Made by a program: the position numbers and the translations under genes. Below, one piece after another: positions 1-26,396 of a stretch of DNA of 26,396 bases. Within the stretch, counting starts at the first letter, position 1. Each line of letters begins with the position of its first letter. This stretch comes from a virus. Below the pieces are notes generated by a model that did no database searches, had not been told where the DNA came from, and saw only the letters and a list, made by a program, of their open reading frames with translations. The stretch lies in IMG/VR virus record IMGVR_UViG_3300029923_000094, positions 1 through 26,396 of that record; one strand, given 5' to 3'.

Positions 1-3000
1 TCGCAATAGTAGCTACTAAATCACGGCCTTTAACTCTGAATTCTCCACCTACTGCCACATTGTTTGATTTAAGCATCCCACGCAGTTTGTCTAACGGTGC
101 CACGACTTCCGGATTATTACTTGCCCCGGGATATTCACCCATAAGACCTAGCGTTGGCCCTGATATAACACCGCCATTAGCAAAAGGCATAACGCCTATT
201 CCCTGTGTTATAGTTGTTGCCGCGGCAACAAATCCCGCTGCTATTCCAAATCCGACGAAAGGTAATGACGCGTGAGCCGCAAAATATTCGGCGCTTGCCA
301 ATTCCATAAAAGACGCAGTAGCTAATTTATTCGCAACAATAACCGGTAAAATTGCTACAGCGGCAGCCGCCTGGGCAGCCGCATCTATGCCAGTAGCAGT
401 TGCCGTCGCACCAGTAGCTACAGCTTCCGCTGTTTTGGCCGCCGCGTGTGCCGTTGTAGCAGTAGTTAGCAAATTAATAATACCTACTATGGTACTAATG
501 CTTTCATACAATTGTATAAAACCATCTATAATCCCCGTAATCTTCTGCCAAGCATTTCCATTGCTGTTTAATGCACTAGTTATATTATTTATTCCGTCTC
601 CAAAACCTTTTATACCTTCCCAACCTTCTTTATATGTTGCAAAACTATGAGCCACCGTACTACGCCAACTTTCATACGTTCCTATAAGATTCTCAATATC
701 TTTGCGTTGATTCTCAGTAGGAGGATTGTTTACATCATTTAATTGCGTTTGTAAGTCTTTAATTTTCTCTTTTAATTCATCAATACCAATACCTCGTACT
801 TTTAGCTTAAATTCTTTACTGCTAAGGCCGCTAATCTGAGCTACTTCTTTTTGCATAGCTGGTATATCTATACCCCTCTGCAAAGCTTTTCTTTTAGCCT
901 CTAAAGCATCTATAGTTTTTTGGGTATTCTGAATTTCATCAGCGCTCTGTCTTTTTTGCAAATCGCCATAATAGTTAATAGCCTCATCTAAATCAAAAAT
1001 GCTATTAAGTGTAGATATATCTCCTGGCTTCTTTAAATCACTTTGTATATCATCCCATTTCTTTTTAAGATCGTCAAGTGCATTGATCTGGAGTTGTATT
1101 TTTGTTCTTTCTGCGGCCGTTGCTGTAGTAAGGGCCTCGTTGTAGTATGATAATTCTTGATTTAATTGTTCATAAGTCTTAATAGATTCTATCGGTATCG
1201 TCGTGTGACCGCTTCTTTCCATTTGCTTACGCAAATCTTCTAACCGCTTAATCTCCGTATCAATGGCGTATATAGACTCTGTATTGGCTGACTCACGTAG
1301 CGATTGTTGGTACTTAATTTCATTATCAACGTCTTGCAAGGTTTTTAATTCTGTCGGACGTTCCATAGAAGCTCTTAATAATTCTAAACGCTTAATCTCA
1401 CTATCTATTCCGGATATAGATTTTTTACTAGCTGTTTCACGCAAAGTCTGCTGATACTTAATTTCATTATCAACATCTTGCAGATTATTTAAAGATAATG
1501 GCCTTTCAGCCGCCTTTTGAGCTAGTTCAATAGCTTCCTTTTGTTTTGTCCATTTGGCAATTTTCTCACGGATTATTTTTTGTTCTTCCGTATTTTCTCC
1601 GGTAAGCTTTTTCTTATATATATCAATATTCGTTGATAATTGCTCATACGTTTTTGGATCCGCAACAGCAACCCTAGTTTTCTTTTTTGCATTTAGATCC
1701 GGTATTTTATCCGAACCCCTAACTTTAAATTTAATATTATTAGATTCTGTAACGGCACTCGATAATTGATTTTTGAGATTCTTAACCCCAGCGTTATTAG
1801 ATTTTATTTTAGCATTTACTTTATCTAAGTCACTGCTTCCTTTTACTTCTACCGTCGTGTAAATAGGCAGTATTTTACCGTCTCCGGCATTTACCTGTCC
1901 TGTTACTATATCTTTCGTTTCTTTTTTTGTACTGTATTTATTTTTATTACCCTCGTTATTATAGATAAGATTATGTGTCTCTTGTTCCTTCTGCGCAATC
2001 TGATTAGCTAAAATTCTAGTTTTAGCCTCTAAAACCATTTGTCGGCAGTATGCCTCACTATTTTTTATTAAAGCATTATACCAAGATGCTACACTAGAAA
2101 AATACCCCATCGTTTTACCGTAGGTATTATTCATTTCTTCGATAATAGTTTTTTCTTTTTGTTTAGACCCCCTGAAATCTTTAAGTCTTGCTATATCTAT
2201 CTCTAAAGCTGCTCTCGATTGTTGCAAAGCTTCTGTTTCTGCATTACGAGCGGCTTCAGTATCTTCTATTTTTTTCTTCGCCTTTTCTTCTTCACTCATA
2301 AATACCCCAGACGCATCTGCGGCCTTATTACTAGAGTTAACAAAATATTCAATCAGCATTGTAACTCCAGCTATGGCCGCACCTACTCCTGTAGATATCA
2401 TTAATCCTCTGAGCGCAATTTTAAAAGCCGTAGCTGTAAAAGCCCCAGATGTCATAGCAGCCGAAAAAATACGAGTAACTACAGCAGTTTGAGATGTACG
2501 CAAACCTAATAATATCATACTTACACTAGCGGCTTTATTTTTAAGGTCCCAAGCAGTAGTTGAAAAAATAAGGGCCTTAATACCCGCTGATAATTTAATA
2601 ACGGCTCCTAAAGCGATTGCGGACTGAGCTGCCATCGTAACAAATGGCAAGCCACCCTGCACCAGGCTTCCTAACTTATTTTTTATACCTGATATTTGAT
2701 TTTCTAATTGTTTCTGCTTTCCTATGTCGGTCTTACCTAATTCGGCATTCATATTACCGACATTATCCGTAATAATCTGAGCCAACATAGCCGCACGCTG
2801 ACTTTCATCGCCATACTTCATTACATGATCCTGAGCGTCGGTAAAAGTAATACCTACACGACGTAATGCTGTTGTCTGACCCTGCATGGCTTTACCCAGC
2901 ATATTACCGGCTGCATAGGCATCCTCTTGTGAAGCTTCTAAACCTCTTTGCTGCGCTATAAGATTATTCATAGCTGGTATCAAGGTTTCTAAACTCTTTC

Positions 3001-3415
3001 TTTGATTTAAAAAGGTCGCTAACTGCTGAGCTCCTCTTTTCTGAACTGTTCCACCTATAACACCTAGGTCCTTCTGCGCACTAATAAGATCTCTGATACT
3101 TTGTATATCAGCATCATTTGCATTCATACGCTGGTGCATTACCGTTATCAATTGCGTATCAGCCTGCTTTGCCGCGGTATAACCGGCTGTTAAGTCTTTC
3201 ATAGTAGCCTGCAATTGCACTAAACTACTTTGCATCTGATCAATACCAGTAGCTAAGGCAGCAAAATTAATTGCGTTTGTATTGAATTTCTGTGCCTCCA
3301 TCAAGGTAGAACTCAAGACCTTCTTTAAGCCGTCAGCGTCGTTGGCTAACTGCTTAAATCCCTTTCCGTCTCCGTCGAGCTTAAACGTTATTGATATGGT
3401 GCTTTTACCGGCCAT
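1..3415 (-). CDS. Phage tail tape measure protein (3' end outside window)
   Basis: One uninterrupted leftward frame of 1,138 codons starts at the ATG at 3415-3413 and is still open at base 1. Tape measure proteins set tail length and help DNA enter the cell. The N-terminal third is helical and Gln/Ala-rich, followed by hydrophobic Ala/Gly-rich segments, a long charged coiled-coil region with a 48-residue tandem duplication, and a second Ala-rich hydrophobic stretch. The last part carries a Gly-rich motif (FANGGVISGPTLG) followed by NPEVVAPLDKLRGML, which is typical of the C-terminal end of this family, so probably only a short piece is missing. It follows the tail assembly chaperone pair, the standard order in siphophages. 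By the usual rule of about 0.15 nm per residue the tail would be near 170 nm, which is inference. Confidence 0.9.
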   Translation of the reverse strand, partial: MAGKSTISITFKLDGDGKGFKQLANDADGLKKVLSSTLMEAQKFNTNAINFAALATGIDQMQSSLVQLQATMKDLTAGYTAAKQADTQLITVMHQRMNANDADIQSIRDLISAQKDLGVIGGTVQKRGAQQLATFLNQRKSLETLIPAMNNLIAQQRGLEASQEDAYAAGNMLGKAMQGQTTALRRVGITFTDAQDHVMKYGDESQRAAMLAQIITDNVGNMNAELGKTDIGKQKQLENQISGIKNKLGSLVQGGLPFVTMAAQSAIALGAVIKLSAGIKALIFSTTAWDLKNKAASVSMILLGLRTSQTAVVTRIFSAAMTSGAFTATAFKIALRGLMISTGVGAAIAGVTMLIEYFVNSSNKAADASGVFMSEEEKAKKKIEDTEAARNAETEALQQSRAALEIDIARLKDFRGSKQKEKTIIEEMNNTYGKTMGYFSSVASWYNALIKNSEAYCRQMVLEAKTRILANQIAQKEQETHNLIYNNEGNKNKYSTKKETKDIVTGQVNAGDGKILPIYTTVEVKGSSDLDKVNAKIKSNNAGVKNLKNQLSSAVTESNNIKFKVRGSDKIPDLNAKKKTRVAVADPKTYEQLSTNIDIYKKKLTGENTEEQKIIREKIAKWTKQKEAIELAQKAAERPLSLNNLQDVDNEIKYQQTLRETASKKSISGIDSEIKRLELLRASMERPTELKTLQDVDNEIKYQQSLRESANTESIYAIDTEIKRLEDLRKQMERSGHTTIPIESIKTYEQLNQELSYYNEALTTATAAERTKIQLQINALDDLKKKWDDIQSDLKKPGDISTLNSIFDLDEAINYYGDLQKRQSADEIQNTQKTIDALEAKRKALQRGIDIPAMQKEVAQISGLSSKEFKLKVRGIGIDELKEKIKDLQTQLNDVNNPPTENQRKDIENLIGTYESWRSTVAHSFATYKEGWEGIKGFGDGINNITSALNSNGNAWQKITGIIDGFIQLYESISTIVGIINLLTTATTAHAAAKTAEAVATGATATATGIDAAAQAAAAVAILPVIVANKLATASFMELASAEYFAAHASLPFVGFGIAAGFVAAATTITQGIGVMPFANGGVISGPTLGLMGEYPGASNNPEVVAPLDKLRGMLKSNNVAVGGEFRVKGRDLVATIA
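1199..1486 (-). repeat. 144-base tandem duplication inside the tape measure gene
   Basis: Two adjacent copies of 144 bases (48 codons), 1486-1343 and 1342-1199, encode closely matching segments that begin NLQDVDNEIKYQQTLRE and TLQDVDNEIKYQQSLRE, each continuing into (I/A)D(S/T)EIKRLE and ending in MER. The copies stay in frame, so the duplication lengthens the coiled-coil part by 48 residues. A shorter motif, KTYEQL, also occurs once before and once after the pair, which suggests a longer series of degenerate repeats in this part of the protein. Confidence 0.9.
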
Positions 3416-3426
3416 TGTAATAATTT

Positions 3427-3729
3427 TTATATTGTCTTACCTAACTTATTAAGTATCTTATCCATCCGTTCACGTTTCTCTTTCGATGTCATTTGCTTAG
3501 ATTCTGCGATACCGAATGTCTTTTTATCCCAGGCAAAAGGTAATAGTTTTTGCGCTGTAATTTTTTGTTTAACATGCGGCTGTATAGTAATCGTTGCTAA
3601 TAAACGTATACGTTCCCAATTTTCTTTATATTCGGCATCGCGAGTTTCTTGCCAAGCCTTGCAAACTGCTTCAAACTCTTCGGGCGTACATTTGCAAAAA
3701 TCTTCGTATGAGATATGGACACGACCCAA
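3427..3729 (-). CDS. Tail assembly chaperone, downstream (-1) frame
   Basis: This frame has no ATG near its beginning; the first possible start is a TTG at 3729. It is open upstream as far as the nine-A run at 3764-3772, where it lies exactly in the -1 frame of the preceding chaperone gene. Reading through by a -1 slip gives KPFEIIELLGIALGR followed by VHISYEDFCKCTPEEFEAV. That pattern (LG.ALGR....S.EDF...TP.EFEA) resembles the tail assembly chaperone family of gene transfer agents and siphophages (Phage_TAC type). It is therefore best read as the T part of a G/GT pair, made only as a fusion from 4073 to 3427 of roughly 215 residues. It sits directly before the tape measure gene, where such pairs always lie. 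Independent initiation at TTG cannot be excluded. Confidence 0.75.
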   Translation of the reverse strand: MGRVHISYEDFCKCTPEEFEAVCKAWQETRDAEYKENWERIRLLATITIQPHVKQKITAQKLLPFAWDKKTFGIAESKQMTSKEKRERMDKILNKLGKTI

Positions 3730-3749
3730 CGCGATGCCTAATAATTCAA

Positions 3750-4073
3750 TTATTTCAAAGGGCTTTTTTTTTGTCCCTTATTTTTATCTTCAGTTTCTGA
3801 TTTCTGTGCTGATTCTTGTATAGCCTGACTCCATACTGTCATATCTTCCGGTGAAATACTATCCGCGAAATCTATTATAGATAGATTAAAATCGACACCG
3901 TCATGTTTACACGCAGATACTATACAACACCACAAGTAAATACACAAATCGCTAAATCCACCATCGATGTCTGTGACTTCTTTGCCGGTTTCATTTTTAA
4001 AACGAAGCATAGCCCCCATAGTTGGCCTACAAGGGTATGCTTTTCCGTCAATAGTTATTTCTATTTTCATCAT
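3750..4073 (-). CDS. Tail assembly chaperone, upstream (G-like) frame
   Basis: A 107-residue protein beginning MMKIEITIDGKAYPCRPTMG, with a short beta-strand start and the core ML.FK.ETGKEVTD followed by a helical Leu/Cys-rich middle and a Lys-rich tail. This layout matches small chaperones that bind the tape measure protein during tail assembly. It starts 4 bases after the tail tube gene's stop. Its last codons carry the nine-A slippery run, so a minority of ribosomes should continue into the next frame to make the longer GT-like product. The family call rests on motif layout and gene order; sequence identity in these chaperones is low. Confidence 0.75.
   Translation of the reverse strand: MMKIEITIDGKAYPCRPTMGAMLRFKNETGKEVTDIDGGFSDLCIYLWCCIVSACKHDGVDFNLSIIDFADSISPEDMTVWSQAIQESAQKSETEDKNKGQKKSPLK
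3764..3772 (-). promoter_or_regulatory. Slippery A9 run, likely programmed -1 frameshift site
   Basis: The minus strand has nine consecutive A. In the upstream gene they are read CAA AAA AAA AGC, which contains the classic A AAA AAA heptamer in the right phase for a -1 slip. After the slip the next codons are AAG CCC TTT GAA and the downstream chaperone frame is open. The zero frame stops shortly after, at the TAA at 3752-3750. A weak hairpin (AATAAT, loop TGA, ATTATT; 3754-3740) begins 9 bases after the run and might stimulate slipping, but its stem is all A-T. Confidence 0.75.
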
Positions 4074-4077
4074 AGTC

Positions 4078-4551
4078 TTATGGTGCTACTACTGTATTTT
4101 CCGTGATAGCCGTTTCATCCAATGTATCAGGCTCTCCGTCATTGTCAAGTGAAATACTATAAGTGCTATCATCCTGAGCAGGATCAACACGCTCCAGAGA
4201 TGCGATAACGAAGTTGCCTACAAGATAAGGCTTATCGCTATTTTCTCTTTCCATACATTTTACCTCTATGCTCTTTCCGGCTTTCCAGGCTACGAATAAT
4301 TCCTTATACCCGGCTTCGGTTTCGTCGTAGAAGTTAAGACCTTCTGCGGAAATAGAAATACTAAGGCCTGTAACGCCCTTGCCCTTCCATAGTCCAGCGG
4401 AAATACCCTTATTAGCTACCGGTTTTACGGCGCGGTCTTTCGTTTCAGAACTAAGAGTAGTAGTATGTGTGGTACAGTGCCCGCAAGCTTTCCCCGCTAG
4501 GTACAGTAGCATATCACTACCGTTACAATAACCTGATTTTGTTGTACTCAT
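4078..4551 (-). CDS. Major tail tube protein (TP901-1 type)
   Basis: A 157-residue protein that forms the stacked rings of the tail tube. Its start (MLLYLAGKACGHCTTHTTT, residues 14-32, then SSETKDRA) is the typical opening of TP901-1-family major tail proteins, followed by a central segment KGKGVTGLSISISAEGLNF and YKELFVAWKAGK, and a C-terminal half (SIEVKCMER..., YLVGNFVIASLE) that fits the same fold. The ATG at 4551 follows an A/T-only leader typical of Bacteroidetes initiation. It lies between the tail terminator and the tail assembly chaperones, which is the usual position. Confidence 0.85.
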   Translation of the reverse strand: MSTTKSGYCNGSDMLLYLAGKACGHCTTHTTTLSSETKDRAVKPVANKGISAGLWKGKGVTGLSISISAEGLNFYDETEAGYKELFVAWKAGKSIEVKCMERENSDKPYLVGNFVIASLERVDPAQDDSTYSISLDNDGEPDTLDETAITENTVVAP

Positions 4552-4569
4552 TTTTTTAATTTTTAATTT

Positions 4570-4965
4570 TTATATTTTAACACTGAACACTAATTGCTGT
4601 ACGTAGGCATCATCTTGCCAAGCTTCTTCGCTATCACTAAGTGTGCAGCTACGCATAGTCAAGCCATCTAATTCTCCTTGCGCATAATCTAAAGAAGCTC
4701 TTACCGCTTCTGCCATTTCTACGCCATCTTTATATTTATCAGTAAAGCATAAAACTTCTATCTGTACGGTGTCTGCGCCGGGTTGCTTTGTCTTGTTCGG
4801 ATTATGTTCTAAAGACGTACGTCTATATAATATATAGGGCAATACCGCTGTATCAGTAGCGACAGGAAATATGTTTGTAGTTATATTCCTAACGATCTCA
4901 TCCTCTAATAGTATTGCACGTATAATACTACCTGCGCTTAATGATGTTTTTTTACTTGCAACCAT
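4570..4965 (-). CDS. Tail terminator / tail completion protein (DUF3168-like)
   Basis: A 131-residue protein with an N-terminal helix (AGSIIRAILLEDEIVRNI), then PVATDTAVLPYILYRRTS and a beta-strand with VQIEVLCFTDKYKDG, followed by a helix MAEAVRASLDYAQ and a final strand VQQLVFSVKI. This order is that of DUF3168 and other tail terminators, which cap the tail tube at the head-proximal end. Its ATG at 4965 overlaps the end of the gp10-like gene by 14 bases, which suggests coupled translation. Confidence 0.75.
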   Translation of the reverse strand: MVASKKTSLSAGSIIRAILLEDEIVRNITTNIFPVATDTAVLPYILYRRTSLEHNPNKTKQPGADTVQIEVLCFTDKYKDGVEMAEAVRASLDYAQGELDGLTMRSCTLSDSEEAWQDDAYVQQLVFSVKI

Positions 4966-5476
4966 ACTTTTCAGCTATCTTTTGTACATTATTAATAACT
5001 TCATTCTGTAGATTCTCCGTTACGCTATCTCTTACATCAGAAAGAGTTTGACGCATAAATCCGTATCGTTTCATCCTACCCGTAGCGTGCCCTTTTCTTG
5101 CACGCATATAGATCTTTGTTTTACTTTTTGTTTGCCTAGGCGCAGTTCCTTCTTCTGCCCAGATAAGTATTGGCTTTTTAAGACCCTGGCGGTTTTTATG
5201 AAATCCGTAATCTTTACCACCACTCTTAGTAGCTTTCTTAGTACCTATAGTAACACGAAAACCAGAAGTACGTTTAAAGACAATAGCCCTAACTCCGCTT
5301 TCCATATCCTTATCGGTTCGGATGCTTCCGCGCAGATTGTTTAATGCCGTCTTACGCACTTGGTTTGCTTCTCTCCGAAAAGCCCCTTTAAGTGCCTGCA
5401 GCCTCTGCTTTACGTCCATTTCAGCGAATAACCGCTGCAAATTATTATCGTCGTATGTTATAGCGCTTTGTCCCAT
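4952..5476 (-). CDS. HK97 gp10-like tail/connector protein
   Basis: A basic 174-residue protein. It has an N-terminal helical part (NLQRLFAEMDVKQRLQALKGAFRREANQVRKTA), a middle with VRAIVFKRTSGFRVTIGTKK, a segment PILIWAEEGTAPRQTKSK and a C-terminal helix. The pattern of an early helix with R.EA..VRK, then a strand and W.EEGT.PR, is that of the HK97 gp10 family of neck/tail proteins. I place the start at the ATG at 5476, which shares one base with the stop of the head-closure gene (TAATG). A TTG 21 bases upstream would add seven residues but is a less likely start. Confidence 0.75.
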   Translation of the reverse strand: MGQSAITYDDNNLQRLFAEMDVKQRLQALKGAFRREANQVRKTALNNLRGSIRTDKDMESGVRAIVFKRTSGFRVTIGTKKATKSGGKDYGFHKNRQGLKKPILIWAEEGTAPRQTKSKTKIYMRARKGHATGRMKRYGFMRQTLSDVRDSVTENLQNEVINNVQKIAEKYGCK

Positions 5477-5796
5477 TATTCGTTTACTCTTACACAAATT
5501 AAAGTATTCATACCACGATCGATGTTAGGTATAATATTTGTTATGGTATAAAGATAGCCGCCTTTCTGCTGTAGTCTCCAATTTTCTTGTATCGGATGCG
5601 CATCACGTATATTAAATTCGGCATTATAGTCTGGAAAATGTTCACCTACTTCCTCACTACGGTGACCCGTAGCTTTGCTACGTTCTGCATGCACGGTCCG
5701 AGTAACTACATATTCTGTAGCCTCTTCTCCGTACTCATTCGTAGTCTTTTTTGGCTCTAATAGCGTAATGCTATATTTCATTCTACCAGCTTGCAT
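5476..5796 (-). CDS. Head-tail joining / head closure protein
   Basis: A 106-residue protein starting MQAGRMKYSITLLEPKKT, then EYGEEATEYVVTRTVHAERSKATG, and a C-terminal strand pair (GYLYTITNIIPNIDRGMNTLICVR). This matches the SPP1 gp16/HK97 gp9-like head-tail joining family: aGr....it...p....d.yGe....w....t..A......g, then a strand with Y.I..i......r...l...c. It closes the connector after packaging. The gene lies between the connector and the gp10-like gene, the standard order. Confidence 0.8.
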   Translation of the reverse strand: MQAGRMKYSITLLEPKKTTNEYGEEATEYVVTRTVHAERSKATGHRSEEVGEHFPDYNAEFNIRDAHPIQENWRLQQKGGYLYTITNIIPNIDRGMNTLICVRVNE

Positions 5797-5810
5797 TTTC
5801 TATGTGTTTG

Positions 5811-6134
5811 TTATGTTGGCGTAATGTCATCCACTAACTTACGATAAGGTTTAATTAAGGCCTGTAGTGTGTCTGGAACTTCATACATTTGTGTAGTACT
5901 AACACTTTCTCTCTGGTTATACCAGTGTGCGGCTAACACCATTATAGCATGCTGTAGGGTTGACGGAAATGTTCCTTTACCCATTTCTGTTAATTCCGAT
6001 TCTGAACGATTCGTAGCATTAATAACGCTTTCTTGGGCAGCATCTATAAGATGCTGTAAATACGTATCATCGTCGGCGAAATCATCCGATCTAACATGCT
6101 TTTTAAAAATTTCCAAACTTACTACGCTGGCCAT
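5811..6134 (-). CDS. Head-tail connector (gp6-like)
   Basis: A 107-residue, mainly helical protein with the phage connector signature: MASVVSLEIFKKHVR, then DDDTYLQHLIDAAQESVINA, and a long helix TLQHAIMVLAAHWYNQRES followed by PDTLQALIKPYRK. In HK97-type phages this adaptor forms a ring below the portal. It lies directly after the capsid gene and before the head-closure gene. The 32-base gap upstream holds no recognisable site. Confidence 0.85.
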   Translation of the reverse strand: MASVVSLEIFKKHVRSDDFADDDTYLQHLIDAAQESVINATNRSESELTEMGKGTFPSTLQHAIMVLAAHWYNQRESVSTTQMYEVPDTLQALIKPYRKLVDDITPT

Positions 6135-6166
6135 AATTAAATCCTAACTTTAAATTTATGTATTAC

Positions 6167-7474
6167 TTACACCGCAGGTACTACCTTACCAAGTTTAAAC
6201 GCCTCCTTTCGCAGTGTCTTAGTACCGTAATCGGTATTAAGTACAAAATCTACCGCGTCCTTACGTGCCTGGCTGTATGGATCCACGATAAAACGTAGGG
6301 TGCCAAACAAACCCATAGGCTGGTATCTCCAGTCGCCTAATCCGATGTACTCAGTTACTACAGTAACCTTAGCAATTTTGCCACCAACCGGAGTAGTAAT
6401 ATCGGCCAAAGCGTGTCCTACTGAATCCCCTGTTACTTCGTATGTAACTGCATCGCCCTCTACTAATGTATAAGGTGCCCAGGCGTTAGTACTTCCTGCC
6501 GTGTATTTCTGATAAGATATAACACGCGGACTAATAACGTTAGTCGTGTAGACAGGTAAACCACACATTACGTGATTCTGAGCCATCGGAATGTAGACAC
6601 CCGAACTATTAATTGGGGTACCCTCCAAAATAGCTTCTAGGCTCTTACTCATAATCCAACAAAGATGCTCGCCGTCAATTCCGGTACTAAGCACAGCTGC
6701 TTTCATTTTGGAATTAAGCTGCGTAAATGTAGGTACAGACGAAAGTGCTACCGCGTTATCTACCAATCCTACAAAAGGCCCAACCAAATTAGTAGCGCCA
6801 TTTACCTTTGTTGTGCTGAACAAGATCTTATTAAGCAGCAAACGGATAGACATTGGCATGATTTCGCGGATAATAGTTTCCAAGATCCCTACACTTTGAT
6901 TCAGCGATTGATTAGTTACAGGTATAGCAATACCCATGCGCTCAGGAGCTGCCTGCATCTTGCTGAATGGTATCTTAGTGTCGCCAAGTGCCACGCCCTC
7001 ACCAGCAATCTGCGCTTCTACCATTTCATACATAGGCCAAACGTAGTCACCAGCCAAGCCAGTTGGCATCGACAAACCTACTTTGTCCAAAATAAAGCCC
7101 TCTGTCAGCGGCTTTAGGATATCTTGTATATTAAGCGGTACTGTAGCGCCGCTGGTAATATCAGATACCATCATCAGATCGCGGACAAAAACAAGTTCTG
7201 TTTTCTTTCCGTTTGTAGCGTTTTCACGAATAATCTTAATAGCATCCTCGCGGGCGTTAGGATTTTCGCGTAAATGCTCCGCTGTCGCAGCCTGCATTTT
7301 CATACTAAGCAACTGATTTTCGCGCGCCAGGGTTTCGTACTCTTTGGTTTCGCCCTCGGTACGCTCGCGCTGCTCCTTTTCGCACGTATCAGCCATTTCG
7401 GTGATACGATCGCAGTTCGCTTGATATTGGTTAACCAATTCGCGAACATTCAAAGTTTTCTTTTCTTTTGGCAT
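6167..7474 (-). CDS. Major capsid protein, HK97 fold
   Basis: A 435-residue capsid protein. Residues 1-100 are Glu/Gln/Arg-rich and helical (the scaffold-like delta domain expected to be cut off by the neighbouring protease). After residue ~100 comes the HK97 core: PLNIQDILKPLTEGFIL, GDYVWPMYEM, the E-loop-like segment with KIPFSKMQAAPERMGIAIP, a spine helix ILETIIREIM, and later a C-terminal part with WRYQPMGLFGTLRFIVDPYSQARKDAV. Position after the protease and portal supports the call. This stretch is more GC-rich than the tail genes, common for highly expressed structural genes. Confidence 0.93.
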   Translation of the reverse strand: MPKEKKTLNVRELVNQYQANCDRITEMADTCEKEQRERTEGETKEYETLARENQLLSMKMQAATAEHLRENPNAREDAIKIIRENATNGKKTELVFVRDLMMVSDITSGATVPLNIQDILKPLTEGFILDKVGLSMPTGLAGDYVWPMYEMVEAQIAGEGVALGDTKIPFSKMQAAPERMGIAIPVTNQSLNQSVGILETIIREIMPMSIRLLLNKILFSTTKVNGATNLVGPFVGLVDNAVALSSVPTFTQLNSKMKAAVLSTGIDGEHLCWIMSKSLEAILEGTPINSSGVYIPMAQNHVMCGLPVYTTNVISPRVISYQKYTAGSTNAWAPYTLVEGDAVTYEVTGDSVGHALADITTPVGGKIAKVTVVTEYIGLGDWRYQPMGLFGTLRFIVDPYSQARKDAVDFVLNTDYGTKTLRKEAFKLGKVVPAV

Positions 7475-7505
7475 TTTCTAAAACTTTTATTGTTAAACAT
7501 TGTCG

Positions 7506-8204
7506 TTAAATTATATGCCCGGCAGCGCGGCGCATTTCGCGCACCTGCTCGCGCATTTTCGTTGTTTTTTCTTTGTCGTCCTGCTGCTGAGGCTTAGCCG
7601 ATTCATGCAATTTACTAGCAAAGTCGCGGGCTTCCACAGAAGTGTCCGGATATGCCGGATCGGCCGCGAGTGTAAAATCGTAAATTCCCGTGACTGCCTT
7701 AACGTTATAGGTGATCATAGTTACACCATTGACTACATTAGCGGCACGTTCTACGCAGGCGTCATCATAATAGCGCGTACTAAACATAAAACTACATCCT
7801 GCGATGTCGCCGCGGCGTATCAGTTCCAAAGCTTTGTCCCCGTCGGTAGTATTTGGCGCCTCAAACTCAAAGCTAACTCCCTTATCATCCACATTGTATT
7901 TTAATGTCCCCTGTCCCTTGTTACTACGCGCCAATATCAACTGTCTGTCATGGAACATAGTAAACTTAATGTCCTGCCCATCTAACAGTTCTTTGGTTAT
8001 CGCTTCTTTGGCTATTACTTCGCGCGCCTCACTTTCATCATCGCACCAAATCGGATTAGATGGCACACCAAAAAGTATAGCATAACCGGTAATAGTTCTG
8101 CTGGGTTCTTCACCCGCACCAGCTTCGCGTATCTGTACGTCGCTACAGGTATGCAGCATCCTTATTACTACTTTGTCTTTATTATTCTTTGTTTCCATCA
8201 CCAT
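7506..8204 (-). CDS. HK97-type prohead maturation protease (S78)
   Basis: A 232-residue serine protease that matures the procapsid. The opening SRTITGYAILFGVPS (residues 35-49) is typical of the family. The catalytic His is in FHD (H85) and the nucleophile is the Ser in GCSF (S138), with the usual spacing between them. The C-terminal ~50 residues (AKPQQQDDKEKTTKMREQ...) are charged and probably disordered. The start at 8204 overlaps the portal gene's end by 23 bases; ATG codons at 8204 and 8198 are both possible. Confidence 0.9.
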   Translation of the reverse strand: MVMETKNNKDKVVIRMLHTCSDVQIREAGAGEEPSRTITGYAILFGVPSNPIWCDDESEAREVIAKEAITKELLDGQDIKFTMFHDRQLILARSNKGQGTLKYNVDDKGVSFEFEAPNTTDGDKALELIRRGDIAGCSFMFSTRYYDDACVERAANVVNGVTMITYNVKAVTGIYDFTLAADPAYPDTSVEARDFASKLHESAKPQQQDDKEKTTKMREQVREMRRAAGHII

Positions 8205-9477
8205 CGTTATTTTCGTTGTTACTATCGTTTTTGTCCACAGGAGTCGTAGGCTTTGCGGGCGCTGCTAGGGCCTCATTTATGCCTCTAAGGTTAGCTGATA
8301 CCAGTACGGCATCTCCGCCCTTAACAGGCTCTTTATTTTCTTCTCTACGCCATTCATTAACTGTATAGATTCCCGCGGCTATCGTCTGTGTCTGATACTT
8401 AACACGACTATCCAGGTCACACGCATACAGGCCGCGCCGGTCAAACTGAAATTTACGTTTAGTTGCTAATGACGGCGCAATAAGTTTGCGCAATAACTCA
8501 GTTTCTATCTTCCGCAAATAAGGATTTAATGTAGTACTTAGAAAAGCTACGTTAGCCATTTCGGCAGACTTATAGTTATTACTCGTGTCATCAAATACAA
8601 AAGACGGATGCACCCCAAAAAATCTACAGATCTCGCGTACTGTAAATTTTCGGCTTTCCAAAAACTGCATGTCGGTGCTACTCAAAGATATTTGCTTAAA
8701 ATCTACTTGACCAGGTAGGCTAACGATATGCTGGCCGGCGCTAAATTTAGCATCTACGTCAACAGCTGTTTTTTGTAACTGCTTATCCTGGTATTCACCA
8801 AATCCGCGTACACTAGTGTCATTACTTACAATACCGCGTACGTTACCCCCGTTAGCAAATCGTTTTAACGTTTCATTATCTCCAGTAGCAGCAATGCCCG
8901 CCGTTAATCGAGCAAATGACAAAACACTAAGGCCGTTTTTACCGTCTAGTGTTAATCCTTTAATGTGTATTACTTCCGATTCATCAAACACTCCGTATAT
9001 TCCATTAGTAAAATCACTAATAGTGTATCTATCATACGTGGTATCGTGCATAACACAGCCTGAATTGCATAACGCCAGGCGGTCGGCTTCCAGGGTTACC
9101 GAGTTATATATGGGTACTATATAAGCATTACCAGTTAGTAATACATTCTGTACTATCTGTACCCAAAAATCGAAAGCATTTGTATTATTATCAGGCTGTA
9201 TGTTAAGTAAGTAATTTAATCGGCTGCTATTGTCAGCTGTAAACAAATCGCCTTTAAGACGCATGACTTGTATAGGTAGATTCGCTACGCTCTCACTGAG
9301 TAGCTTAACACAGCGAAAAACTGTAGCTATATTAAGCGCCATTTGGTCGTTTCCGTACATAAGATAAGACGTATCGCCAGTACGAGCCGGGGAACCGATA
9401 CTACTAGTACCGCTTCCTTCGGTCGTAATGGCTGTTTCACGTCTAAACCACCGTACTATGTTATTCAAAAAACCCAT
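8182..9477 (-). CDS. Portal protein, HK97 family
   Basis: A 431-residue portal. Visible family signatures are the N-terminal MGFLNNIVRWFRRE, then NIATVFRCVKLLSESVANLP (residues ~50-70), LTGNAYIVPIYN, EVIHIKGLTLDG and the clip/stem region LSSTDMQFLESRKFTVREIC followed by FFGVHPSFVFDD. The tail end is Asn/Asp-rich and probably flexible. It follows the large terminase gene after 128 noncoding bases that hold four phased AAGGTA repeats. Confidence 0.93.
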   Translation of the reverse strand: MGFLNNIVRWFRRETAITTEGSGTSSIGSPARTGDTSYLMYGNDQMALNIATVFRCVKLLSESVANLPIQVMRLKGDLFTADNSSRLNYLLNIQPDNNTNAFDFWVQIVQNVLLTGNAYIVPIYNSVTLEADRLALCNSGCVMHDTTYDRYTISDFTNGIYGVFDESEVIHIKGLTLDGKNGLSVLSFARLTAGIAATGDNETLKRFANGGNVRGIVSNDTSVRGFGEYQDKQLQKTAVDVDAKFSAGQHIVSLPGQVDFKQISLSSTDMQFLESRKFTVREICRFFGVHPSFVFDDTSNNYKSAEMANVAFLSTTLNPYLRKIETELLRKLIAPSLATKRKFQFDRRGLYACDLDSRVKYQTQTIAAGIYTVNEWRREENKEPVKGGDAVLVSANLRGINEALAAPAKPTTPVDKNDSNNENNDGDGNKE

Positions 9478-14573: not shown

Positions 14574-16997
14574 TTAAATGTCGCTGTCATCTATTTCTTG
14601 TACCTGAATAACACGCCTAAATCCTTTTTGTGTCCCGTAAAGTTTAGCTGCGTGCTTAGTGGTACTTATACGCTCCCATCCCAGCATATTATCTAGATAC
14701 CTGCATACTCGGCGGGCCAGATATTTATATTCCTTATCGGTCATATCACGGCCCAAGCGTTCACAAATAAATTCGGCGGCACATATTCTTTCACGTCGGA
14801 TAGTTCCAATCTCATCCAACGGGTCGGGATTACTGATATAAGCACGTCTACGTTTTAAATCCCAGCTGTCCCAGTCGGCAGGCAATAGCATATCTAAGAA
14901 AGTATCTAACGCGCCCTGCAACGGGTCGTCGCTGTCGTCGCTGTAGTCTTTTTGTCTTAATCTTGCTTCCCCCTCCAGGTCTTTAGGCAGATACAATTTT
15001 TCGCCCTCTTTATAGCGCTGTACTGCTTCGGCCCAAAGTTGGTTACGATTGCCTGCTAAATCAGCATTTGTGTATTTGCGTAGTGACTCATCGGTAGATA
15101 TAACCCAGAATCTACGGTTAGTATCGCCCTTTAAAAAATAGTCTTCATTCGTGGTACCGCAAAAAATACACTGCCTTGGATGCTTTTCTACAACTGTACC
15201 ATACGCAGCCCTGTAGATGTCGTCCCGTCGTGAGATATAGCCCTTGACCTGTTCTACGTCGCTGCGCTTGATACTCGATAATTCGGCTAACTCTATTATC
15301 CATCCGCAGCGCAAAGCTTCCATACCGTTTTTGCCCTCCGTAGTTGTTAGACTGTCACTAAACCAATCGCCGCCCATTGTATTAAATAGCGTTGATTTTC
15401 CCAAGCCCTCTACACCTTGTATGATAAGACAATAGTCGTATTTGCAACCAGGATTAAAAACGCGCGCTACGGCTGCCGTGAAATGCTTACGCGTCATAGC
15501 GCAATTTAACGGCGTGTCCTCGGCCCCCATATAATCTATTATTAATTTATCCAAGCGCGGAACTCCGTCCCATTGCAGGCCTTGTAAATAAGTTTTTATG
15601 GGGTGTATTTGATGTTTTGTTAATACTACGTCTTTTGCGTCTTTGATTTTATCTTTTCCGGTTACGTCGTAATTTTCCTCTAAATATACGCGTAAATTAG
15701 CATCGTCCCTGTTTCCCCATTGCGTAGCTTTTTTATCCCATGGCAAACCGTTTCGTAGCAAGTCAAATCCACTAAATAGATCATGAAATAGGTGGCCCTT
15801 TAATTTTGGATCATTCTCCAGGATGGATATTATATTTTTAGCCGTTGATTTAACAGCACCTTTTCTATCGTAGTCTAAACCAGCCATCCAGTCTGTGTTC
15901 TCTGCTTCGTCGGCTTCAACGTCTACACCATCGAAATCACTATTGGCGTCGGCCTGGCGTTCTTTTGTGAGTAGAACACGAACATTCTTATCTTTAGCAC
16001 AGAAGTCCTGCATTTTAATATAGGATGGAATGTGTGTAATATCTGTTACTTTTGTGCCCTCATCCTCTGCGCCAAATTTATGAATGCGTACCAGGTCAAA
16101 GGCATTACATAACTGTCGGCTCGCCGGATCTGTTTCATGATGGCTATAGGCAAATTTATTTTCATAACATACCAATCCTCCAGCAACACTACCAAGCTTG
16201 TATGTATAGCGGTTGTCTGTAGCCGTTCTTTCGTATTTGTCTTGCAGAAATATGTCTATAGCATCTTCTATAGTATATACGCGGTTAAATGCGCCGATTA
16301 GTCCTGGTTTCTCCAGTGGGTCTCCAGCCTTTCGTATTTCGTGTGCGATAATATCACCCTCACGACTACTTATAGGCCACTGTGAAACATCGTGGAAGTC
16401 CTTATAGGTGCTTAGTATCTTATCTACGTTACAGGCTTTCCCGTCTTGATATTCAAATATGTAAGGCGCGTCCTTGCTTGAAGATGGCCAATAAAATAGC
16501 CGGGGTAATTCGTAGGTTGTGTCATCAAACAGATCTATACCTATTTCGGCAGCTATCTTACGACAAAGGGGCTCGTATTCTGCGGGTGATACTTGGCGGC
16601 TTAACGGAAATACCAAACGAAATCGTGGTTTTTCGTTGGCGTGCTTATGCGTACTATATAGCATGGCTGCGAAGTCATAGGCCATAGAAAAGTCGTCCCA
16701 CACATTTGGTGTTCCATAGTCAATATCTAAAGTAGCCACAGTACGATACATTACGTTAGCATTTTTGCGTATTCCTCCAGATAAATAACCACCTACGAAT
16801 CCTCCGACATCTTTTATTTCGCTCTGTTCATCGCGGCTCATTTTTGTGTATTCTTTAGCTGTTTCATCAGTGCGTTTTGTATCAGCACAACGCGCTAATA
16901 ATTCACTCCATTTCCAGCAGCGATTTTTCCATTTTTTAGATAATCTACTATGCGCTGTAGCTATATCTATTTCTATGTCGTGCTTAATTTCTATCAT
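14574..16997 (-). CDS. Primase-helicase (BT4734-like primase plus VirE SF3-like helicase)
   Basis: An 807-residue two-part replication protein. The N-terminal third looks like an archaeo-eukaryotic-type primase: ATLDIDYG (Asp91, Asp93), then STHKHANEKPRFRLVFPLSR (115-134) and ELPRLFYWPS (163-172), the pattern of BT4734-like/VirE N-terminal domains. A middle segment with CYENKFAYSHHETDPASR follows. The C-terminal part is a VirE-type helicase with Walker A GVEGLGKST (528-536), Walker B WIIELAEL (566-573) and sensor FCGTTN (612-617), followed by FLKGDTNRRFWVIS. It should prime and unwind phage DNA. It lies just upstream of the iteron-like region and 2 bases after the PcfJ gene. Confidence 0.9.
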   Translation of the reverse strand: MIEIKHDIEIDIATAHSRLSKKWKNRCWKWSELLARCADTKRTDETAKEYTKMSRDEQSEIKDVGGFVGGYLSGGIRKNANVMYRTVATLDIDYGTPNVWDDFSMAYDFAAMLYSTHKHANEKPRFRLVFPLSRQVSPAEYEPLCRKIAAEIGIDLFDDTTYELPRLFYWPSSSKDAPYIFEYQDGKACNVDKILSTYKDFHDVSQWPISSREGDIIAHEIRKAGDPLEKPGLIGAFNRVYTIEDAIDIFLQDKYERTATDNRYTYKLGSVAGGLVCYENKFAYSHHETDPASRQLCNAFDLVRIHKFGAEDEGTKVTDITHIPSYIKMQDFCAKDKNVRVLLTKERQADANSDFDGVDVEADEAENTDWMAGLDYDRKGAVKSTAKNIISILENDPKLKGHLFHDLFSGFDLLRNGLPWDKKATQWGNRDDANLRVYLEENYDVTGKDKIKDAKDVVLTKHQIHPIKTYLQGLQWDGVPRLDKLIIDYMGAEDTPLNCAMTRKHFTAAVARVFNPGCKYDYCLIIQGVEGLGKSTLFNTMGGDWFSDSLTTTEGKNGMEALRCGWIIELAELSSIKRSDVEQVKGYISRRDDIYRAAYGTVVEKHPRQCIFCGTTNEDYFLKGDTNRRFWVISTDESLRKYTNADLAGNRNQLWAEAVQRYKEGEKLYLPKDLEGEARLRQKDYSDDSDDPLQGALDTFLDMLLPADWDSWDLKRRRAYISNPDPLDEIGTIRRERICAAEFICERLGRDMTDKEYKYLARRVCRYLDNMLGWERISTTKHAAKLYGTQKGFRRVIQVQEIDDSDI

Positions 16998-19078: not shown

Positions 19079-19098
19079 TGCCCGGCTAACGCCGGGCA
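19079..19098 (-). terminator. GC-rich perfect hairpin after the C-type-lectin gene
   Basis: TGCCCGGC and GCCGGGCA form an 8-base perfect stem with a 4-base loop (GTTA in the sense of the genes). It starts 20 bases after the stop of the gene at 19119-19787. The following minus-strand sequence is ATTTAAAACC, so the T-run is poor for an intrinsic terminator. In retroelement-diversified genes a short GC-rich hairpin or cruciform just after the variable region is needed for target recognition, and this hairpin has the right position and stem length. Which role applies is open. Confidence 0.5.
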
Positions 19099-19118
19099 AA
19101 GGTTAAACAAATAAACTA

Positions 19119-19787
19119 TTAAGAAATAAATGCTGACACAGGGCGAACTCGACCCGTGGTCGTAGACTTAGTGCCGTTGCCCATGGTGCCGTCGAAAAGA
19201 GTCAGATGCCAGGCATCCGTAGCGCTGTCCTCGGTAGAAGTCCAGTACCAAGCATCAGCAATAATTTGGCCACCTACATATTTCAAAGCTTCATTAAGTG
19301 CTTTTTTGTTCAAGAAAATAAAAAGCATTTGCCCCATAGCAGGTATATATTGTCCATCTTCTAGTATGATATTTTTATTAAGGCCTATTTGTTCTAAATG
19401 CTTAGTATTGCTTTTTCCATTCCAATCTGCTACAGCGTCCGTATAGTTGTCTATATAACCGTCGTATTCTGTTTTATCTTTGCTATTTGTTAGCGTTGTA
19501 TATTCTCCGTCGGCTGCGTCTTTAAGCGCCAAGGCGATAGATTTACTACCCATCTTAATGCCTACTGCTATACAAGCGTCTTTATTGCATCCTGGTTCGA
19601 ATAATACCGGACTACCTACTTTTTTAATAAGGTAGATTCCGTCAGCCATTTCGTTAGGCGTTGATGACGTTCCGGATTCTTTACTATCGGCCATAACAAA
19701 ATCGTATGACTTTTGTGCATTTTCTACGTTGGCGTGGTTCATAACCAGAAGCGCCATTTTCATTTTTTGAATTTCATTTAATACCAT
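19119..19787 (-). CDS. DUF1566/C-type-lectin-fold protein, candidate retroelement target
   Basis: A 222-residue protein without a signal peptide. The C-terminal half has the C-type-lectin/DUF1566 pattern: ILEDGQYIPAMGQM (residues 141-154), a helix LNEALKYVGG, then ADAWYWTSTEDSATDAWHL and the ending GRVRPVSAF (212-220). This is the shape of variable proteins of diversity-generating retroelements. Bases 19141-19260 are 58% G+C by my count, while 19321-19380 are 30%. The residues that would vary have codons ending in C or T (GAC, AGC, GAT, CAT, ACT, CTT, GGC, TCT, ACC, GGT), as if made by changing A in AAC/AAT template codons. No reverse transcriptase or template repeat is seen in the window. 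It starts 4 bases after the ASCH gene; an early-region place is unusual for a receptor-binding protein. Confidence 0.7.
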   Translation of the reverse strand: MVLNEIQKMKMALLVMNHANVENAQKSYDFVMADSKESGTSSTPNEMADGIYLIKKVGSPVLFEPGCNKDACIAVGIKMGSKSIALALKDAADGEYTTLTNSKDKTEYDGYIDNYTDAVADWNGKSNTKHLEQIGLNKNIILEDGQYIPAMGQMLFIFLNKKALNEALKYVGGQIIADAWYWTSTEDSATDAWHLTLFDGTMGNGTKSTTTGRVRPVSAFIS

Positions 19788-20179: not shown

Positions 20180-22162
20180 TTAATCTTTTAAATAGTAAGG
20201 TGTGGAATATCCGGAGCCTTTTAGTGGCAAATCACGGCACCAGTCTATGATCTCGCTAAATAAAGCCTCAACACTTTGCAGTGTTTGGCCTGGCTTAGCT
20301 TCTACTATAATTTCATCATGTATATGAAATACTACGTCTAAATTCTGTTTGCGGGCGCGAAGTATTACAATACCTAATATGTCGCGTGCAATGGCTTGCA
20401 CTATGTTCTCTACCAGTTTACCGCCGTAGGTTCTTATTGTTCCCCACTTCTTAGTAGTCTGATTAAGACCCTCGTATTCTATTACTTCTCGGCTTTCTCT
20501 CCATCGGTCGGACTCTTCTCCGATAGCAACACGCGGGTAACAGATTGTTCGCTTTGACGGTAGGGTAATAGTAAGCATACCCAGACGCTTTCCTATAATA
20601 ATATCACGATTAATTTGTACGTCTTTACCGGTCTTAATAGCTGTATAGGCTGCTTTTTCTACGATGGCCCAAAGACGAACTATATGCGGATTAGCTTCAC
20701 GCCACTTGTTAACGGTATCCTTTTCTTCTTCCTCTGTCATACCCAAGCGTGCACCGCCCATAACTTCCAGGGCAGATACACCACCGCCGTAACCTAATGC
20801 TAGTGTAGCTATCTTTCCTTTTTGTCTAAGTTCGGAATTTTGGCCGTGCTTTTCTACCGGCTTCTTAAACATTTTTGATGCCGTGGCGCAATATATATCG
20901 CCCCCGGCTTTAAATACATCTAACACCCAATTCTCACCAGCTAACCAAGCTATAACGCGGCACTCGATAGCGCTAAAGTCGCAAACGTGGAATATACAGC
21001 CAGACTTAGCGATAAATGCCGTACGTATTAATTCACTCAGCACTTGAGTTACGTTATCGTAGTTTAGTTCAAACTCATATAAATCACCCTGCCGGACTAA
21101 ATAGCGTGCATCGTCTAAATCATTTAAGTGATTCTGTGGAAGATTTTGTAACTGTACCAGTCGGCCCGCCCATCGTCCTGTACGTGCTGCGCCATAAAAT
21201 TGCAAAAGCCCGTGCACTCTTCCGTCTTTGCAAACACAATTTAGCATAGAGCTATATTTCTTATTGCTCGTTTTTCCCATTTCTTTGCGAAGCGATAAAA
21301 TTTTTTGCGCTCTCGGAAAAAATGATAGCTGCTTATCTAGGTCATCAAGATTCTTTTTGTTGAGGCTTTCTATAGTCATCCCAGTAGTCTTGCTTAAATA
21401 TGCTTTAATCTGTGCAGGACTATTAGGATTATCCATGCCGGTTAACTTCTGCGCTTCTTTAAGCAGTTGTGATTTGTATTCGGTGTCGAAGCGTTCCGCG
21501 GATTCAACTAACTGCTGATCTATCATAACGCCTCGATCATTTATTTCTTGGTCTGCCGTATATAATTCTTCGTCAAAAGCTGGTACTTCTAGGCGACGTA
21601 CTTTAGCTAATATAGCTTGTTCTACTTCGACGTCTCTTATATTGTAGGATTTAAATACTGCCCATTTTTCGGGGTAATCTTCTGGTAAATGTCTATTAAC
21701 TTTGTTGCCATTGACGAATAAATCCGAATCGTCTTTAGTTGATTTAGTTGGTATAGAAAAGAAACGTATTAAAGCTTTACCTTCTGCCATTTTTTGTTGC
21801 TCTAGGTGTAGTACTTCTCCGCACTGCGCAAGTGATAAGGGCAGGCCCATACGTGCAGCACGTACCATTGTGCAGCGCCACTGGGCGGCGTCTAAATGCA
21901 GGCCGTAGTACTTACTCAGGCAAATCCGTTCAAAAGAGGCATTAAATGCGGTTTTAATTATTTCTGAATTAGTTAGTGCCTGGCATATATTTTCCGGGAG
22001 TGATTCTCCAAGGGCAAAATCTATACATTGTACAGGACCACCGTCGACACTATAAGAAAATAGCAAAATAGTAAAGTCAGAAGCTTCCACGTATTTATAT
22101 ACGCCGCAGTTAATTAAGTCATTGCTGCTATAAGTTTCTATGTCTATACCTAATTCTTTCAT
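20180..22162 (-). CDS. Family A DNA polymerase with 3'-5' exonuclease domain
   Basis: A 660-residue phage replicative polymerase. Exonuclease motif I is GIDIET (Asp7, Glu9), with FNASFERICL (residues 73-82) and YNIRDVEVEQ (173-182) as later exonuclease motifs. Polymerase motif A is VCDFSAIECRVIAWL (393-407), motif B RQKGKIATLALGYGGG (446-461) and motif C HIHDE (614-618). A template-binding segment YGAARTGRWAGRLVQLQNLP (323-342) precedes motif A. There is no 5'-nuclease domain. It lies between the ssDNA-binding protein and the primase region. Confidence 0.93.
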   Translation of the reverse strand: MKELGIDIETYSSNDLINCGVYKYVEASDFTILLFSYSVDGGPVQCIDFALGESLPENICQALTNSEIIKTAFNASFERICLSKYYGLHLDAAQWRCTMVRAARMGLPLSLAQCGEVLHLEQQKMAEGKALIRFFSIPTKSTKDDSDLFVNGNKVNRHLPEDYPEKWAVFKSYNIRDVEVEQAILAKVRRLEVPAFDEELYTADQEINDRGVMIDQQLVESAERFDTEYKSQLLKEAQKLTGMDNPNSPAQIKAYLSKTTGMTIESLNKKNLDDLDKQLSFFPRAQKILSLRKEMGKTSNKKYSSMLNCVCKDGRVHGLLQFYGAARTGRWAGRLVQLQNLPQNHLNDLDDARYLVRQGDLYEFELNYDNVTQVLSELIRTAFIAKSGCIFHVCDFSAIECRVIAWLAGENWVLDVFKAGGDIYCATASKMFKKPVEKHGQNSELRQKGKIATLALGYGGGVSALEVMGGARLGMTEEEEKDTVNKWREANPHIVRLWAIVEKAAYTAIKTGKDVQINRDIIIGKRLGMLTITLPSKRTICYPRVAIGEESDRWRESREVIEYEGLNQTTKKWGTIRTYGGKLVENIVQAIARDILGIVILRARKQNLDVVFHIHDEIIVEAKPGQTLQSVEALFSEIIDWCRDLPLKGSGYSTPYYLKD

Positions 22163-25669: not shown

Positions 25670-26203
25670 ATGAAAAAAGTGATTTTAATTTTTTCCGTAA
25701 TATTATTATCTGTAGCGGCCAGTGCTCAAAATGATAGTATAGGCGTGTATGCTTATATAGATGGCGTGTATAAATCTATTATGCCCATAAATTACCAGCA
25801 AACTAAAATAGGTATTGGAAAAGCATATAATATCTTTGCGGGCGCTACAAGCGTTAATCATTTTAGCAAGCAGGCTAAATTTAGGCTTTATTTCGGTGCA
25901 GTTACTCCGGATAAACTACAGACCTACTTTACTTTTTCTAACGCCTATAGCATCGCAGATTACGGTGTAGGAGAATTTAAGGTGAAAAAAGATAGTAGGC
26001 TGCTGGCCACTGTACGTGGCTCCATCTTTGGAATTAAGGGCGGTACGGTTAAATCAGATAACGTAAATGTACTAACCGATACAGTACGAGCGAGCGTGTA
26101 TGATATAACCGTAGCAGGGAAGCCAGGCGAATACTGTATAATGGTTACACGTAATGGTGCAGGCGCTTATTACGGTGTCTACGATTTTACTATAACAGAA
26201 TAA
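25670..26203 (+). CDS. Secreted protein in the repressor operon (probable lysogenic conversion gene)
   Basis: A 177-residue protein with a clear signal peptide ([20 protein letters not shown], cleavage likely after Ala19) and no lipobox Cys, so it is probably periplasmic. The mature part is strand-rich, with repeated Tyr/Gly and a C-terminal sandwich-like region ([20 protein letters not shown]). No family is recognised. It starts 5 bases after the repressor stop and should be expressed in the lysogen. It may alter the envelope or exclude phages, which is inference. Confidence 0.75.
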
Positions 26204-26267
26204 GCAAAAATCAAGCAAATGTAAAATTAATAACGTAAGTAATTGTAAATCAACAAGTTATAAAATT
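26204..26267. other. Probable right prophage boundary (attR region)
   Basis: Sixty-four A/T-rich bases separate the last phage-like gene from host-like fabG. The phage/host junction should lie in or near this stretch. I see no tRNA, no terminator and no consensus promoter for fabG here, so transcription from the repressor operon could run into fabG. The core att sequence cannot be named without the left end. Confidence 0.4.
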
Positions 26268-26396
26268 ATGGGATTATTAAATGGAAAGACAGCCCTTATT
26301 ACAGGTGCTGCACGCGGTATCGGTAAAGCTATCGCATTGAAGTTTGCATCTGAAGGTGCAAATGTCGCATTCACGGATTTGGTTATTGATGAGAAT
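26268..26396 (+). CDS. fabG: 3-oxoacyl-[ACP] reductase FabG (5' part only)
   Basis: Forty-three codons from the ATG at 26268 run out of the window. The start [20 protein letters not shown] has the short-chain dehydrogenase cofactor motif TGxxxGxG (TGAARGIG, residues 12-19), then the first Rossmann strand-helix continues ([12 protein letters not shown]). FabG reduces 3-oxoacyl-ACP with NADPH in fatty acid synthesis and is a core host gene. A phage gene is unlikely; it marks the host chromosome next to the prophage. Confidence 0.88.

Follow-up and report, generated by a model that had tools for sequence, protein, structure and literature searches.

The closest described systems are those of phages Bacuni F1, F2 and F4 of Bacteroides uniformis (MT635598, MT806186 and MT806185; PMC8143477), in which a diversity-generating retroelement (DGR) likewise has two targets, one near the Avd gene, the template and the reverse transcriptase, and the other distant; the two-target arrangement with a distant target is thus already published. 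In these phages the distant target is a homologue of the gene considered here and adjoins DNA polymerase A, and their genome of ~40 kb is alike in size.

The target of the DGR of Bordetella phage BPP-1 is the adjacent tail protein Mtd. With the BPP-1 system (Guo et al. 2011, PMC3240598) the present one shares a reverse transcriptase, Avd, a template, a lectin-fold target that carries the repeat at its 3' end, and a downstream 8-bp GC hairpin with a 4-nt loop, but it has a second target 29 kb off and its remote loop, GTTA, does not fit the GRNA consensus. One template also feeds two lectin-fold targets in the two-target phage DGRs with tentaclins described in PMC10743442; there, however, the DGR cassette contains both targets, and in one of them the repeat is close to the 5' end of the gene.

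The window (the whole analysed stretch of 26,396 nucleotides, IMG/VR record IMGVR_UViG_3300029923_000094) carries at 19119-19787 a gene that is very probably the second, distant target of a DGR borne by a Bacuni-like temperate phage. Compared with F2, the proteins of this phage are 71% (polymerase), 67% (primase), 66% (reverse transcriptase) and 47% (remote target) identical, which suggests a different genus or a distant member; by these values it is clearly distinct from the Bacuni phages. The gene following the target is a methyltransferase in F1 and F2 and a different one in the window phage.

The prophage and its retroelement

As the original prediction had it, the window contains no reverse transcriptase and no template, there being no second copy of the repeat within it. 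Its edge falls inside the tape-measure gene, so the tail region is missing. A search with the tape-measure end located contig G001 (L070/L079), which overlaps the window over 8584 bp with 0 mismatches and continues past its edge. The map of the joined prophage includes the following features.

1-8584, minus strand: stretch identical to contig G001 (L070); beyond it the contig carries tail genes, the near target, Avd, the template, the reverse transcriptase and an integrase
14574-16997, minus strand: gene for primase/helicase, a conserved neighbour on the downstream side of the remote target
20180-22162, minus strand: gene for DNA polymerase A, a conserved neighbour on the upstream side of the remote target
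26268-26288, plus strand: 21-bp core, probable attachment site, corresponding to the opening codons of host fabG; a second copy adjoins the integrase on G001 (L079:6450-6470)

The continuation encodes a 257-aa lectin-fold near target, the DGR accessory protein Avd (L079:1837-2223; bAvd, E 6e-25) and a 393-aa reverse transcriptase (L079:2446-3627; RVT_1, E 1e-15; PHROG reverse transcriptase, E 4e-75). The layout is that of the Bacuni-like lineage, with the remote target between polymerase A and primase and, following the tail genes, the near target together with Avd, the template and the reverse transcriptase. An adenine-rich template beside a reverse transcriptase, for which a search had been proposed, was therefore found, with an Avd gene, on the continuation of the same prophage. 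The suggestion that the retroelement acts from elsewhere or has been lost is right in that it lies outside the window and wrong as to loss; a host-borne or lost retroelement was rejected, since the phage itself encodes the machinery.

Both prophage ends carry the 21-bp repeat from the 5' end of host fabG (L001:3500-3520 in the phage sense, L001 being the same phage as the window), and this shared att core supports the reading of window and G001 as one prophage of ~40.7 kb. The join of window and template is an identical overlap of two contigs, not one continuous record, and was counted against the two-target interpretation. By coordinate arithmetic, the template lies ~29 kb from the remote repeat in the integrated map and ~11 kb from it across the joined ends.

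The right end of the window (26196-26396) is host DNA, as are L001:2091-3520 and L079:6494-6742; the prophage is inserted at the start of fabG, and a TetR-like gene flanks its other end. The host FabG is at most 88% identical to those of Bacteroidales genomes, from which the host is probably a Bacteroidales bacterium. Beside the repressor gene at the lysogeny end, positions 25670-26203 (plus strand) encode a 177-aa protein with a signal-peptide-like N-terminus and no match in Pfam or PHROG, possibly a lysogenic-conversion gene.

The remote target and its variable repeat

The gene and its repeat are as follows.

19119-19787, minus strand: gene of the remote DGR target; its 222-aa product has two helices at the N-terminus, then a linker and a C-type-lectin-fold domain
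19131-19235, minus strand: variable repeat (VR) covering residues 185-219; it departs from the template at 14 positions, each of them a template adenine

The C-type-lectin/DUF1566-like C-terminus described earlier for this gene is present. The match to Lcl_C (E 3.3e-4) is under the Pfam curated cut-off, and the fold is supported by an AlphaFold model (pLDDT 90.6), in which a linker joins two N-terminal helices to a lectin-fold domain, and by its nearest structure matches, Legionella Lcl (PDB code 8q4e) and a Bacteroides fimbrial protein (4eps). The near target has the same lectin-fold domain, together with a long conserved N-terminus that is absent from the remote target; its own structure model was poor (pLDDT 44) and was left out of the reasoning. 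Between the window phage and F2 the remote target is the more diverged of the two (47% identity vs 64%). The step in G+C content reported at the 3' end is real, with 56% over 19127-19247 compared with 37% for the remainder of the gene and 40% for the window, and smaller than the 58 vs 30 first quoted.

The 105-bp template (L079:2312-2416, identical to G001:C1:18811-18915), which lies beyond the window, aligns without gaps to window positions 19131-19235. All 14 differences fall at template adenines, of which there are 36 in 105 positions (hypergeometric P 4e-8), and 10 of the 11 AAY codons of the template are changed. This is the adenine specificity by which a DGR is recognised, and the repeat of the near target shows it as well (12/12 differences from the template at adenines). 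Judged by this pattern, the gene ends in a true DGR variable repeat and is a target of the phage's own retroelement. Five of the eight residues previously named as variable (187, 191, 194, 203 and 212) agree with the template, while 188, 197 and 208 are constant in it; comparison with the template adds 196, 198, 201, 205 and 210, which had been missed. An automatic template/repeat scan with 90-bp windows recovered the pairs of F2 and none in L001 or L002. Surveys restricted to the surroundings of reverse transcriptases miss distant targets, a limit stated in PMC8144416; the present case is one in which a target far from its retroelement was recognisable from sequence.

In the proposed mechanism, the phage reverse transcriptase and Avd would copy the template RNA and make errors at its adenines; the resulting cDNA would replace the 3' 105 bp of two targets, one near the reverse transcriptase and one 29 kb off in the replication region. 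The homing mechanism, and the hairpin as a recognition aid, are assumed by analogy with phage BPP-1. The predicted product is a soluble C-type-lectin-fold protein with ~11 variable residues.

Relatives bear on whether the retroelement still reaches this gene. Over 15,116 bp, locus L016 departs from L017 at 18 sites, 17 of which are within 70 bp of the remote repeat, and the cultured phages F1 and F2 show 16 differences in 1857 bp around the remote target, all 16 in its repeat. Hedzet et al. (2021, PMC8143477), who call the distant target VR1, likewise place nearly all differences between these phages in the repeats. In about a dozen relatives the substitutions are almost exclusively at adenines of the respective phage's own template. 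For the template of L050, 14 mismatches are at A and 3 are others. The A-specific clustering that had been expected is thus borne out, both in the window repeat and in close relatives that differ almost solely in the remote repeat; these comparisons are direct evidence that the remote target is actively mutated in relatives. Frameshifts in the remote variable repeat or at its end were noticed in L016:3930-3999 (one extra base relative to L017) and L113:9953-10675, which suggests that homing can turn the protein off and on.

The remote repeat could instead be a passive recombination copy of the near target in which diversification has ended. The window and L001 do have the same repeat, and this was counted against activity in the window's own phage, the two being records of one phage. 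A passive copy is nonetheless most improbable, since the remote repeat is 15 sites off the near repeat of the same phage, and it was rejected on the adenine-only differences from the template and on the L016/L017 and F1/F2 comparisons, in which recent changes are confined to the remote repeat. That the window repeat has no non-adenine difference from the template argues for recent homing in this phage also.

The hairpin downstream of the target

19079-19098, minus strand: hairpin TGCCCGGC-GTTA-GCCGGGCA, 8-bp stem, 4-nt loop; presumed DGR target-recognition element

The hairpin lies exactly 20 nt past the stop codon, with the loop GTTA, as originally described. No other perfect stem of at least 8 bp in the window is GC-rich, the rest having at most 4 G/C, and the hairpin's distance of ~31 nt from the end of the repeat fits the geometry of DGR hairpins (7-10 bp stem, 4-nt loop, 4-34 bp from the repeat). 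Nearly all near and remote targets have a GC-rich stem of 7-10 bp ~10-31 nt past the stop codon. Between two genes, a GC-rich stem might also serve as a transcription terminator and be no part of the target; this is improbable, as no T-run follows the hairpin (CATTTAAAACCC) and hairpins of like geometry stand after both targets in most relatives, as in other phage DGRs (PMC3240598).

The loop GTTA does not conform to the GRNA consensus of PMC3240598, and this was counted against the interpretation as a distant target. GRNA loops follow 12 of 14 near and 15 of 25 remote targets, with no significant difference (Fisher P 0.15). Among the departures are GTTA (the window and the near target of L121), GCAA (F2 and others; the remote loop of the Bacuni phages), GTAG, AGCG and TTTT. 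Loops GCAA and AGCG appear compatible with homing, as the GCAA target of F2 differs from that of F1 solely in the repeat and the AGCG-loop targets of L021 and L068 differ mostly there; a GRNA loop is accordingly not a defining feature. In BPP-1, the altered loops put to the test were CTTT and longer ones (PMC3240598). What is added here is a set of several diversified targets with loops outside the consensus (GTTA, GCAA, AGCG), by which the lineage provides natural exceptions to the GRNA rule. The L121 target with the GTTA loop is at L121:9848-10627.

Conserved position and possible role of the remote protein

The early-region placement remarked on from the start is a replication-region one: of the 24 loci that span the interval from DNA polymerase to primase, 22 have the remote target there. 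Some of the loci counted are duplicates, as L001 is the same phage as the window, L016 is nearly identical to L017, and L019 to L020. The target is missing from L057 and L067, whose polymerase and primase are the most divergent of the set. Also added to the published arrangement are the fixation of the remote target in the lineage, its lack of a signal peptide and its fusion to DUF3310 in one relative. With the second target a fixed and actively mutated part of the lineage, its job becomes a well-posed, testable question. DUF3310 is known mainly from phage replication regions; in the single such fusion (L040:695-1522) it is N-terminal to the remote target.

The remote protein has about an even chance of being another virion protein for receptor binding or adhesion, oddly placed on the map, whose diversification widens host range. 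The near target has the same lectin-fold domain, the nearest structures are the fimbrial protein and Lcl, Hedzet et al. propose adhesins resembling fimbrial tips (PMC8143477), and phage DGR targets known so far are mainly receptor-binding proteins, according to PMC10743442. The replication-region location in 22 of 24 loci speaks against an adhesin, as do the missing N-terminus of the near target, the greater divergence and the published host-range change, which followed VR2 and not VR1 (PMC8143477). It is also quite possible that the protein is early and intracellular, binding variable host proteins such as defence or exclusion factors. The early-region position fixed across the lineage, the fusion to DUF3310 and the finding by hydropathy of no signal peptide or membrane segment among 30 homologues favour this, but the fusion is a single case and the fold is typical of adhesins. 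The two readings are nearly even, and the adhesin is slightly favoured because known phage targets are mostly of adhesin type. A lineage of Bacteroidales phages in which one retroelement diversifies two proteins of differing function, a tail adhesin and a lectin-fold binder of variable host factors that acts early inside the cell, and accepts non-GRNA loops in target recognition, is a more doubtful, tentative proposal.

A homologous target occurs also in a second phage group (L002:4000-8644, L105, L107, L109 and L110), with a different reverse transcriptase ~2.7-2.9 kb downstream. No template was found near the reverse transcriptase in this group, including that of L002, 2.7 kb downstream of its target, and L002 was for this reason left out of the evidence. 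In L109 and L110, the same contigs also bear matching adenine-rich templates, placed in a distinct cassette (L128 and L126).
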